This document shows, in pieces, positions 4,403 to 57,798 of a DNA stretch of 64,000 nucleotides. The stretch lies in NCBI GenBank assembly GCA_026392045.1, contig JAPLCU010000018.1, positions 25,393 to 89,392 of the forward strand, written 5' to 3'. Source of the DNA: Armatimonadota bacterium. Its GTDB lineage: Bacteria > Armatimonadota > UBA5829. Position numbers and translations under genes: made by a program. Every line of letters starts with the position of its first letter. The first letter of the stretch is position 1. Under the pieces are notes generated by a model. It saw only the letters and a program-made list of their open reading frames with translations. It was not told the origin of the DNA and did no database searches.

Positions 4403-4521
4403 CAGCCTTGATCGCCCTGGAAATCTGTTCCAGCCTTGATCGCCCTGGAAATCTGTTCCAGCCTTGATCGCCCTGGAAATCTGTTACAGCCTTGATCGCC
4501 CTGGAAATCTGTTCCAGGGCG
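4403..4521. repeat. Tandem repeat, four 28-bp units CAGCCTTGATCGCCCTGGAAATCTGTTC ending in a completed hairpin CGCCCTGGAA-ATCTG-TTCCAGGGCG
   Basis: Units at 4403, 4431, 4459 and 4487 with one substitution noted (GTTA in unit 3). Confidence 0.95.
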
Positions 4522-4731
4522 CAGGTATTGCGGAAATCCATTCCGTTAGTATAGGCCTTGGCAGATGAGTTGTCCTGATTTAATCGGGAGAAACGTGCAT
4601 CCCGAATGGCGCTTCGGGACGATCATCATCGATGCGTTCCAGTGCGTACCCGGTTTGCTATTTTCTGTTTACTATTTGCCAACTCTGTGCTATTATTCAC
4701 AGGGCTTCGGGTGAAAGAACAGGAGATGGAT

Positions 4732-6708: not shown

Positions 6709-6742
6709 GCCTTGATCGCCCTGGAAATCTGTTCCAGGGCGA
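6709..6742. repeat. Single copy of the CGCCCTGGAA-ATCTG-TTCCAGGGCG hairpin repeat between atpE and atpF
   Basis: Same 28-bp unit as 4403-4521, completed by CCAGGGCG. Confidence 0.9.
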
Positions 6743-18711: not shown

Positions 18712-19890
18712 ATGGCTTTTAGTAGCAAAAAGGTAAGGCCGCTATTCACCCTGGTATTCGCGATTCTGGGCGGCGTGGCAGGAAACGCGTATGTTTCGTC
18801 TCTGCTTAATTTAATAAAAGCTAAAGATCATAACCTATTTGGAATAATCCCCATTAATCAAACACCTCTGAACTCAAATGAGCAGGCGACCCTCTACGTC
18901 GGCTTCATTATTCTGGGTGCGCTGTTCGGCTTTATGGCCGAGCGCATTGCGTATGTTCAGGCAGCAAAGACACGTTTGAAATTAGAGAGCATGGCCGCGC
19001 AAGATAAGATCGCAGTGGTTGTGGGGCTTTTGGTAGGTCTGTTGCTTACCGCTCTGATAGTGAGTATTCTCAAGATTCCGCTGTATATGTGGTGGGTGAA
19101 TATAATACTGGCTGTTTTGCTCTGCTACATTTCTGTGGCAGCGGCAGATAGCCTTAAAGAACAGGTGCGCTTTTACTTCCCTGGTTCAATGCCTTCAATG
19201 AAAGGGGACTACAAATCGGCTAGCCGTCCCAAGATCCTCGACACCAACGTTATCATAGATGGCCGCATAGCGGACATTGCTAAGGCCGGTTTTGTTGAGG
19301 GACCAATTTATGTGCCGAAGTTCATATTGGAAGAGCTTCAGCAGATAGCCGATTCCAGCGATTCGCTCAAGCGCGCGCGGGGCAGGCGAGGCCTGGATAT
19401 TCTCAACCAGATGCAGAAAGAAATGGAACTTATTATTCCGGAGTTCGAGGCGGACTCTTCCGACGAAGAAGTGGATGCGCGGCTCGTTAGGGTTGCGCGA
19501 GAGGTCATCGGCATAATCGTTACAAACGACTACAACCTGAACCGCGTGGCGGAGCTGCAGGGAGTGGAAGTGATGAATATAAACGAACTCGCAAACGCCC
19601 TGAAGCCGGTTGTGCTGCCGGGCGAAGAGATGCGGGTTATAATCATTCGCGAAGGCAAAGAAAAAGAACAGGGCATCGGTTACCTGGACGATGGCACGAT
19701 GATCGTTGTAGAGGGCGCCAGACGGCTCATTGGCGAGTCGCTATTGGTCTGCGTAACCAGTGTTTTGCAGACCGTGCAGGGCAAAATGATCTTCGGAAAG
19801 ATCAAAGACGATGCAGAACAGGAAAACGAGAGCTTTGAGGATAGCATCCGCTCTTATTCCGGCGGCAGGCCAAGGAAAAAGATTCGGTAA
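18712..19890 (+). CDS. PIN/TRAM-domain membrane protein (YacL-like)
   Basis: N-terminal TM helices, KILDTNVIIDGRIADI, C-terminal TRAM-like GEEMRVIIIREGKEKEQGIGYLDDGTMIVVEGA. Confidence 0.85.
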   Translation: MAFSSKKVRPLFTLVFAILGGVAGNAYVSSLLNLIKAKDHNLFGIIPINQTPLNSNEQATLYVGFIILGALFGFMAERIAYVQAAKTRLKLESMAAQDKIAVVVGLLVGLLLTALIVSILKIPLYMWWVNIILAVLLCYISVAAADSLKEQVRFYFPGSMPSMKGDYKSASRPKILDTNVIIDGRIADIAKAGFVEGPIYVPKFILEELQQIADSSDSLKRARGRRGLDILNQMQKEMELIIPEFEADSSDEEVDARLVRVAREVIGIIVTNDYNLNRVAELQGVEVMNINELANALKPVVLPGEEMRVIIIREGKEKEQGIGYLDDGTMIVVEGARRLIGESLLVCVTSVLQTVQGKMIFGKIKDDAEQENESFEDSIRSYSGGRPRKKIR

Positions 19891-21046
19891 GGGCTCAAAC
19901 AAAGTCTTCTCCACTATTGCGGGGAAGCCGATTCTTGCCCATACCATATCCGTATTCGAGGCTTGCGAAGCCGTCAACGAAATAGTGCTGGTAATAGGCC
20001 GGCAAGAACTCGAAGCGGCTGGCGATTTGGTTGGCCGCTTCGGTTTTCAAAAGGTGCGCCATATAGTGCCGGGTGGAAACCACCGCCAGGATTCCGTGAG
20101 CCGGGGCCTTGAGATGGTCACCGGAGATGTGGTGGCAATACACGATGCCGTCAGACCGATGGTGACCTGCGAAATCATCGAGCGCTCAATCGATGAAGCA
20201 AGAAATACGGGAGCATGTATAGCTGCGGTGCCGGTCGTCGACACCATCAAATCCGCCGCACCTGATCTACTTGATCGTCGGGGAAATCTCGATCGTCGGG
20301 GAAATCTGTTCCCCGACGCACCTGATTTGATCGTGGAAAGCACTGTCGATAGATCGAACCTCTACGCCGTGCAGACCCCGCAGACATTTCAGACCGACCT
20401 CATTCGCCGTGCATTCCAATTGGCGTTTGCTGATAACTTTTATGCTACTGATGATGCGGCGCTTGTAGAAAGAATGGGGCATAAAGTCAGTATTGTGCCA
20501 GGATCTTATGACAACATCAAAATTACAACCCAAGCCGACCTGGAGCTTGCCATTATGAAGCTCGGCGGCGGTGAGACCAGAACCGGAATGGGCTTCGACG
20601 TGCATACGCTCGTGGAAGGCCGAAGACTCATCTTGGGTGGGGTCGAAATACCTTACGAGCTGGGCTTGTTGGGGCATTCGGACGCGGATGTGATGCTCCA
20701 CGCGATAGCGGACGCATGTTTGGGAGCGGCGGCGATGGGCGACATCGGCAGGCGCTTCCCCGACACCGACCCCAAATATAAAGGCATATCCAGCCTCACA
20801 TTACTCAAACATGTGGCCGATATTCTAGCAACGGACGGCTGGCGGATAGTGAATGTGGACGCCACCCTCGCGGCTGAAAGACCCAAGATCGCTAAATACG
20901 TTCCAGACATGATCAGCGGCATCGCCGCGTGTCTGGGTGTTGACGTGAGCCGAGTCAGCATTAAAGCCACTACGACTGAGAAGCTCGGCTACATAGGTCG
21001 AAGCGAAGGAATGGCATGCTGGGCCGTTGTAACCGTTTCGCGTTGA
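19811..21046 (+). CDS. ispDF: Bifunctional 2-C-methyl-D-erythritol 4-phosphate cytidylyltransferase / 2,4-cyclodiphosphate synthase
   Basis: ALIPAAGQGKRFG, LYAVQTPQTF (IspD); GMGFDVHTL, LLGHSDADVMLHAIADA (IspF); exact start uncertain, overlaps the upstream gene. Confidence 0.92.
   Translation: MQNRKTRALRIASALIPAAGQGKRFGKGSNKVFSTIAGKPILAHTISVFEACEAVNEIVLVIGRQELEAAGDLVGRFGFQKVRHIVPGGNHRQDSVSRGLEMVTGDVVAIHDAVRPMVTCEIIERSIDEARNTGACIAAVPVVDTIKSAAPDLLDRRGNLDRRGNLFPDAPDLIVESTVDRSNLYAVQTPQTFQTDLIRRAFQLAFADNFYATDDAALVERMGHKVSIVPGSYDNIKITTQADLELAIMKLGGGETRTGMGFDVHTLVEGRRLILGGVEIPYELGLLGHSDADVMLHAIADACLGAAAMGDIGRRFPDTDPKYKGISSLTLLKHVADILATDGWRIVNVDATLAAERPKIAKYVPDMISGIAACLGVDVSRVSIKATTTEKLGYIGRSEGMACWAVVTVSR
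20258..20326. repeat. Palindromic repeat inside ispD: CGTCGGGGAA-ATCTG-TTCCCCGACG plus tandem half copy, flanked by GCACCTGAT direct repeats 60 bp apart
   Basis: GCACCTGAT at 20258-20266 and 20318-20326; the element matches 54640-54665. Confidence 0.9.
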
Positions 21047-27851: not shown

Positions 27852-27950
27852 GTTAGTTTCGGGATTTCCGCTGCGCTCAAATCCCGAAAAACCGGCAGCA
27901 TCACCATTCCCTTCCCGCCATCAAACCATCGGACTATCGGACTATCAGCC

Positions 27951-29892: not shown

Positions 29893-30798
29893 TTACGCCC
29901 TGCGCCTTCTTATGCCGATAAGTCCTGCCAAGCCGCCAAGCAAAACGATGATTGATGACGGCTCAGGGACGGGAGTCATATCATAAACGAAACCCTGATA
30001 GCCTTCCTCCTCGTTCCAGGAGTAGCCGACAATATTGTTACCGTCGATACCTGTAGCGAAGGTGCTATACGCTCCGGGTGCATCCAGCGTCATCCAGGTA
30101 GCACCGTCATACACAAAACTGTGGTACCCACTGTTATAGTAGTAGCCGACAATATTGTTATCGTCGATGCCTGTGGCGTGGGTGCTCGTCGCTCCAGGTG
30201 CATCCAGCATCATCCAGGTAGCACCGTCATACACAAAACCGTGGCTCACACCACCTCCGGTGACGTAGTTGCCGACAATATTGTTACCGGAAATGTCCAA
30301 GGCATATGTGCTCGTCGCTCCTGGCTTGTCCAGCGTCGTCCAGGTAGCACCGTCATACAAAAAGCCGTGGTACCCGCTGTTGTAATAGGCTCCGACAATA
30401 TTGTTACCATCGATGTCCTCGGCGTATGTGCTCGTCGCTCCAGGCTTGTCCAGCGTCGTCCAGGTAGCACCATCATACAAAAAGCCGTGGGTAGCCATAG
30501 TCCAGTCACGGTATAGTCCGACAATATTGTTACCGTCGATGCCATAGGCGTGGGTAAGGTCCGTCTCTGGCTTGTCCACCGTCTTCCAGGCTAAACCGTT
30601 GCATACGAAGCCGTGGTCGCGACCACTGACGCTGTAGACTCCGACAATATTGTTACCGGAGATGCCTAAGGGCATGGTCTCCGTCGCACCAAGTCCAGCC
30701 ACAGTTCTCCACGTCCCCGCATGAGCAATACCACCCAGGCTCAGCAGCGCGATGGCTGCTGTTACTTGAAATACTTTCTTGATCTTTTCTTCCATTCC
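29893..30798 (-). CDS. PEP-CTERM sorting domain protein with HAF-like repeats
   Basis: Repeated DGNNIVGxY...GFLYDGATWTTLDKPGATSTYA; C-terminal VPEPSSIIVLLGGLAGLIGIRRRRA. Confidence 0.88.
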   Translation of the reverse strand, partial: GMEEKIKKVFQVTAAIALLSLGGIAHAGTWRTVAGLGATETMPLGISGNNIVGVYSVSGRDHGFVCNGLAWKTVDKPETDLTHAYGIDGNNIVGLYRDWTMATHGFLYDGATWTTLDKPGATSTYAEDIDGNNIVGAYYNSGYHGFLYDGATWTTLDKPGATSTYALDISGNNIVGNYVTGGGVSHGFVYDGATWMMLDAPGATSTHATGIDDNNIVGYYYNSGYHSFVYDGATWMTLDAPGAYSTFATGIDGNNIVGYSWNEEEGYQGFVYDMTPVPEPSSIIVLLGGLAGLIGIRRRRA

Positions 30799-45395: not shown

Positions 45396-45549
45396 CCTCA
45401 GGATGGCGATGTGTAAGCCTCAGAGTGGCGATGTGTAAGCCTCAGGATGGCGAAGTGTAAGCCTCAGGATGGCGAAGTGTGAGCCTCAGGGTGGCGATGT
45501 GTAAGCCTCAGAGTGGCGATGTGTAAGCCTCAGGGTGGCGAAGTGTGAG
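45396..45549. repeat. Tandem 22-bp repeat, seven units CCTCAGGATGGCGAAGTGTAAG (variants GG/AG, A/T)
   Basis: Seven consecutive units read directly; related to the reverse complement of the 36471 array. Confidence 0.95.
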
Positions 45550-45856
45550 CATTCCCCGTTCGTAAACACACCGGGTTAGAGAATCTCATACTGTTGCTTC
45601 TCGGAAAACCGGTGGGTCTATCCACACAAAAGCGCATAGCCCAAATAGTATATATAAATATCAGGCTGGATTTGTAATCCAGCCTTGTCGTTACCTCTTG
45701 TTTTGATGCATTTTGTCCTGAATTCCAAGCCTATCTCTTGACTGTAGCGAGTAAGCGGGATATACTACAGAGTTAGTAACGTTTGGCTGTGGGTATAATC
45801 ATTTAATGTTTATCTTCCATCCATACTGGCTGGGCCGTGGCACGGAGGACTCTTAT

Positions 45857-54634: not shown

Positions 54635-54795
54635 GATCGTCGGGGAAATCTGTTCCCCGACGCACGTTCCTCCCGATTAAATCGGGACGGTTCACCTACC
54701 AAGGCTATACTGGCGGAATAGATTTCCGCAATACCAGCGCCCTGGAACAGATTTCCAGGGCGATCATAGGCGCAACAGATTTCCAGAGCGATCAC
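54635..54795. repeat. Composite hairpin repeat: CGTCGGGGAA-ATCTG-TTCCCCGACG, TCCCGATTAAATCGGGA, GCGGAA..TTCCGC, CGCCCTGGAA..TTCCAGGGCG
   Basis: Reverse complement matches 4487-4615 over about 120 bp with scattered substitutions. Confidence 0.88.
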
Positions 54796-57348: not shown

Positions 57349-57798
57349 TGCTCGTCCCGGTTGCTTAGTTAATTAAAAAGTCCCGCATGTGCCGTGTGTC
57401 TACCGAGTTGTTGAACCCTTCATACCAGGGCGGCGCCAACTGCTGCCAATTCGCGATTTCTCGATTTCTCGGGACTGCCACTCATGGTCACCAAGATAAG
57501 CGCCTACAATTTTGAGTGTAGGCTCAAAACTTTCTCGACTAATCACGTACACCGCAGGACCCTTAAACCTACTGTTTACTGACAAAATTATATTACCACA
57601 ATATATGCCTCTATACAACCTGAAAAAATTGCGATTACGTAAAAATGTTGGGTTGGGGAGGGAAGTGTCCGGGGGAAATATGGCTCTGTCCCCAATACTG
57701 TGCAATACTGTGTTACAATAGAATGCACCAGAACCGGTTTCCCGTGCGGTAGCGATTAAGCTGGTTGGGAGACCGAGAAATAACGGATATAACATCAA

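Follow-up and report, generated by a model that had tools for sequence, protein, structure and literature searches.

Hairpin units and doublets in the window

The window analyzed here, a 64,000-nucleotide stretch of an Armatimonadota genome (G000; 3.55 Mb in 206 contigs), carries a family of short hairpins at several loci (Table 1). The 28-nt unit consists of a GAT foot, a 10-bp stem, and a 5-nt loop, ATC(T/C)(G/A), of which the forms ATCTG, ATCCG, ATCTA, and ATCCA cover nearly all units. Foot, loop, and the apical A-A/T-T are constant across units; in all of them (e.g., window 4494-4521), the foot GAT is complementary to the ATC of the loop. The hairpins named in a preliminary description of this DNA are all present (4497-4521, 6717-6741, 20294-20318, 54638-54662, and 54738-54762 [minus strand]), as are its small hairpins, GCGGAAATCYATTCCG. 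The shared prefix TTGATCG that it reported is reduced to GAT, as the TT is variable and the C/G belongs to the stem. The copy that it placed at 20277 is itself a 5' half, and the full hairpin follows it at 20291.

Table 1. Units, half units, and doublets of the hairpin family in the window
Feature	Coordinates	Strand	Remark
Tandem 28-bp array of 5' halves (GAT + 5' arm + loop)	4403..4493	+	No complete 3' arm in its 5' halves
Full REPIN-like doublet, GAT+HP1+HP2-linker-HP3+HP4+ATC, 131 bp	4494..4624	+	Aligned with 22 other copies, same layout
HP1, CGCCCTGGAA-ATCTG-TTCCAGGGCG	4497..4521	+	Foot GAT at 4494-4496
HP2, GCGGAAATCCATTCCGT, accessory hairpin beside the unit	4530..4546	+	Read directly; alignment
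HP3, CCTGATTTAATCGGG, accessory hairpin of the inverted half	4574..4588	+	Read directly; alignment; GCGGATCAGATATCCGC at this position in other copies
HP4, minus strand GAT-CGTCCCGAA-GCGCCA-TTCGGGATG, unit with a different apex	4598..4624	-	
Solo unit GATCGCCCTGGAAATCTGTTCCAGGGCG	6714..6741	+	
5' half unit	20273..20288	+	Directly upstream of full unit
Full unit GATCGTCGGGGAAATCTGTTCCCCGACG	20291..20318	+	In frame within ispDF (ORF 19811-21046)
Full REPIN-like doublet, 131 bp	54635..54765	+	Opposite orientation to 4494..4624
5' half unit GATCGCTCTGGAAATCTGTTGC	54772..54793	-	Outside doublet

Two of these loci are doublets of ~131 bp, in which two outward-facing units are each followed by a second small hairpin, with a linker between the two inverted halves; an alignment brings together about 24 genomic elements of this layout. 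Among 83 separate clusters of copies sampled from the source genome, GAT-outward inverted pairs number 24, with an inner gap of 72 to 76 nt in 23 of them, whereas the opposite order occurs three times, with gaps of 5 to 16 nt.

The window also holds a 6S RNA at 57376-57563 on the minus strand (Rfam RF00013, 64.9 bits), a tandem repeat of about 120 bp within an ORF (30021-30590, 4.4 copies), and seven copies of a 22-bp tandem repeat, CCTCAGGGTGGCGATGTGTAAG (45396-45550).

Copy number and paired change of the stem arms

Allowing at most two mismatches, the 13-base core of the hairpin has 13 matches in the window against 1.7 expected, and the exact core has 82 matches in the whole source genome against none for the reversed control. 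When 44 distinct units are used to build a covariance model, it recovers at least 150 copies of the unit in that genome. Stretches fetched around the copies sampled the 83 separate clusters, and the family is not the product of one clonal duplication. In DNA sampled around the GAT family itself, 87 of 290 perfect hairpins have a GAT foot, making it by far the commonest triplet.

The stems vary, and they vary in pairs. Six of the 10 stem pairs change on both sides, yielding about a dozen fully paired arm types, and G-U pairs are present. With four outer-arm bases left free on each side, a genome-wide pattern search gives 52 matches, 48 of which are fully complementary and represent seven different arm pairs (hand count). 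Among the 44 distinct units, all preselected to have no fewer than 8 of the 10 stem positions paired, pairing holds in 96% of cells; covariation scores 0.45, compared to 0.13 for shuffled units and at most 0.17 for slid partners. Since two arm types, inherited by descent, account for most copies, the number of independent paired changes is perhaps ten rather than a hundred. The central claim of the preliminary description, a constant core with arms that change together, thus holds, as does selection on the structure of an ssDNA or RNA hairpin; the arms of the other copies covary.

Alternatively, replication or repair may use one arm as the template for the other, and pairing would then be under no selection; this would be quasi-palindrome correction, through template switching or snap-back priming at the AA...TT apex. 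Imperfect palindromes mended by templated repair would show the same pattern, so rewriting of the arms by copying retains some probability, and it is favored by arm changes that reach near the apex (GGCAA/TTGCC) while AA...TT stays constant, as a primer would. However, it leaves unexplained why the GAT foot is unpaired and fixed, why the doublet spacing is constant, and why GAT hairpins surround transposase genes (see below). Copying would moreover be expected to continue into the foot and place ATC after solo hairpins, where CA is usually found. On balance, we regard this explanation as rather unlikely.

Polar half copies

Partial copies are frequent; they keep only the 5' half of the unit, lack the 3' arm, and are located 5' of a full hairpin. 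An automatic count gives 40 half copies on the 5' side and 1 on the 3' side; with near-full hairpins excluded (L076, L141, and the single 3' case, in L065), there are 24 loci against 0 (sign test, about 1e-7). The breaks lie 13 to 23 nt into the unit, that is, within the loop or just past it, in a search that is blind to breaks inside the 5' arm. When the breakpoints were inspected by eye for microhomology or C|T cleavage, no consistent motif emerged. Halves that end in the loop or just past TT(C) are common, and these are the intermediate that arm copying needs.

Since a palindrome alone offers replication no side to prefer, something reads strand polarity. Strand-specific cleavage has been reported for the REP-associated tyrosine transposase, or RAYT (PMC8266576), which by analogy would be a natural candidate for this reader. 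The half copies might then record a copying step, in which one particular strand is nicked within the loop or directly behind it and the arms are rewritten by the element's own replication. Such a nick would leave a 3' end carrying the foot, the 5' arm, and the loop; this end could restart synthesis upstream or fold back, so that the 3' arm would be rebuilt from the 5' arm. As a specific account of the half copies, we consider this step quite improbable.

Genomic placement

By crude ORF calling, 114 of 145 units (79%) lie outside ORFs, which cover 81% of the sequence, and 31 lie within them. The intergenic copies occupy 39 co-directional, 13 convergent, and 6 divergent gaps. Such placement, together with the strong stems and their G-U pairs, would suit an RNA role, in which the hairpins are selected as terminators, mRNA 3' stabilizers, or a small RNA family. 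Nevertheless, divergent gaps hold copies, with the window copy at 4494 itself lying between divergent genes, and the window copies are not followed by a T-tract. Among Rfam covariance models, none matches the hairpins, the 6S RNA being the only match in the window. As an RNA role would also leave the fixed unpaired GAT and the inverted doublets unexplained, we consider it very unlikely to account for the family, although a secondary role of this kind, by analogy with E. coli REPs, is possible.

In-frame copies with no stops occur in at least nine genes, one of which is ispDF in the window. The other carriers encode an HlyD-type adaptor, an outer-membrane efflux protein, a secretin, a FliK-like protein, a FliI-like protein, a TPR-glycosyltransferase, a MOSC-MoCF protein, and a Big_7/Cu-amine-oxidase-N protein. 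In an alignment of ispDF, the copy corresponds to about 20 extra residues that are absent from four relatives. In-frame units in flagellar, efflux, secretin, and other genes (L141, L093, L127, L128, L067, L092, and L100) encode short peptides, such as SGDGFPGRS and GEQISPTIS. Palindromes within genes are also known from Rickettsia. RAYT genes of subclass 2.4 carry in-frame REPs (PMC6006769).

RAYT genes of related genomes

The exact pattern has no match outside the source genome, either among 60 relatives or among the 85,462 species genomes of GTDB 220. Units of relatives are visible to the covariance model, which finds isolated ones in G002, G007, G016, and G017, plus one doubtful match in G023; at the scale of the phylum, only G000, G016, and G017 pass strict filters. 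Both the unit and a full inverted doublet (L114:1501-1627) are found in other genomes of the same order.

The preliminary description had hinted at a REP-type transposase, and in five related genomes, six RAYT genes do sit between inverted GAT-type hairpins (two in G007 and one each in G002, G011, G015, and G017). In five of the six, the hairpin arms differ between the two ends, and two depart from GAT on one side (GTT in G002 and GCT in G007:C19). At the locus with foot GTT (L174), one side reads GAT-CGGGTGCGAT-ATCTG-ATCGCACCCG, with a 10-bp stem and a loop identical to that of the unit, while the GTT side has the loop ATCCG. The second G007 gene (G007:C3; L147) has hairpin 1 and hairpin 2 at each end, such that the gene takes the place of the doublet linker.

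All four GAT-flanked RAYTs that were tested score above the cutoff of NCBIfam REP_Tyr_transpos (NF047646), and their profile matches TnpA-REP 4er8 (5e-10). Alignment of the GAT-flanked proteins shows the HUH, WQ, YIH[QN]NP, and SS-tail motifs, apart from small departures, among them PxHxH and YIHDNP. A tree of 24 RAYTs places the six together in one clade with 98/98 support, which excludes every source-genome RAYT in the tree. The GAT label does not extend to the whole clade: beside five further members, other hairpins or none were found, and the tree gives no resolved split inside the clade. RAYTs of the wider group of relatives are also often bracketed by hairpins, but with other feet; in two Anaerolineae records (L217 and L266), the arms differ between the RAYT ends and the apex is kept.

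The doublets have inverted and similar ends, and flanking direct repeats of 7 nt or more are shared across 9 of 46 solo sites, against 2.4 when shuffled. Even so, it is extremely unlikely that the doublets are MITEs of a double-strand (DDE) transposon with the hairpins as terminal inverted repeats: no constant-length or clean target duplication was found, each end is itself a hairpin with arms unlike those of the other end, and the gene flanked in relatives is a Y1 transposase.

A RAYT of the GAT clade was not found in the source genome assembly, and none of the RAYT matches in that genome has adjacent GAT hairpins; they have other hairpins or none. The GAT elements of the source genome thus look orphaned; for REP families, a flanked RAYT in the same genome is usual but not a requirement, and orphan families have been described. 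Its own RAYTs were considered as direct mobilizers and rejected, as their flanks carry other hairpins, e.g., GCTTCGGGACTGTTTTTCGTCCCGAAGC. This hairpin belongs to a second REP family with 62 genomic copies (window 33796, 62077, and 54013) and is found at both ends of the RAYT gene on contig C179 (L113). A third hairpin family, TTTCGGGATTTGAGCGCAGCGGAAATCCCGAAA, occurs in the window at 27878 (minus strand) and 43862 (plus strand), in L110 and L111, and upstream of RAYT fragments on C143 and C65.

A probable REP/REPIN family in Armatimonadota

Taking together the anatomy observed, the number of copies, the covariation of the arms, the spacing of the doublets, and the GAT-type hairpins around six RAYTs of relatives, we conclude that the hairpins very probably constitute a REP/REPIN (BIME-type) family, a nonautonomous element spread as ssDNA by a REP-associated tyrosine (HUH, Y1) transposase. 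The preliminary description could match them to no named family, a position that can now be abandoned. The transposase would read a strand-specific hairpin through the 5' foot GAT and the apex AA-ATC(T/C)(G/A)-TT, and the stem between them would only have to pair. As foot and apex would be read and the stem would need nothing but pairing, the arms would be expected to drift by paired changes. The mobile doublet would consist of two units pointing outward, with solo units as remnants or partial insertions. We infer that a RAYT of the GAT clade once moved the elements of the source genome, recognizing them by foot and apex, and that this cognate enzyme has since been lost or lies within an assembly gap. 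Several points count against the REPIN reading: no RAYT of the GAT clade was found in the source genome, the GAT label covers only part of that clade, the canonical GTAG foot is absent, and neither a transposition event nor an exact empty site was seen.

In the two REP/RAYT surveys that were searched for the name of the phylum, Armatimonadota are not mentioned. The family described here defines a REP family in this phylum, with a foot other than GTAG and a clade of transposases that is likely cognate. The natural differences in foot, apex, and arms around a single clade of enzymes show what has to be recognized. Polar half copies and in-frame insertions in genes are concrete traces of the movement of RAYT elements, which is still poorly understood.

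Comparison with known systems

The elements share with REPINs and BIMEs (PMC3116915, PMC2817692) a high copy number of mainly extragenic hairpins, a conserved short guide 5' of the hairpin (here GAT), inverted doublets of characteristic, fixed spacing, and linked RAYTs, which lie between units in the related genomes. Compensatory changes across the doublet hairpin have likewise been described for REPINs and BIMEs of Pseudomonas and E. coli (PMC3116915, PMC2817692). In contrast to these, the canonical GT[AG]G guide is absent from the source-genome units, whose foot is GAT, the apical loop is fixed and the arms are variable, each half has an accessory hairpin, and the source genome has no cognate RAYT found.

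The TnpA-REP proteins of subclass 2.6 (Bertels group 5) are mostly from Bacteroidetes and have atypical flanking structures without GT[AG]G (PMC6006769); for RAYT class 3, like subclass 2.6, GT[AG]G is described as missing. The six GAT-flanked RAYTs resemble subclass 2.6 in length, the WQ motif, a YIHxNP-like tyrosine motif, and the SS tail, a likeness that places them by motifs and not by a tree with reference members. They also share flanking hairpins that lack GTAG and have genomic copies. Unlike subclass 2.6, they are found in Armatimonadota and have a consistent GAT foot.

Like the Rickettsia palindromic elements and CGTC REPs (PMC3733652), the units are palindromic, lie in frame in some genes, and have no flanking transposase of their own; unlike both, they have a linked RAYT in relatives. 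Membership of the CGTC REPs, which have an unpaired terminal CGTC and A-T first stem pairs, was considered and rejected: here CGTC, where present, lies in the variable stem, and the foot is GAT. IS200/IS605 ends and their nonautonomous derivatives are likewise ssDNA hairpins that a Y1 transposase recognizes by a 5' guide, but the ends of the GAT family are inverted rather than in one orientation, and the linked enzyme is REP type. The REP/REPIN kind is thus already known; what is new is the GAT foot, the fixed apex with free arms, the accessory hairpins, and the orphan state in the source assembly.
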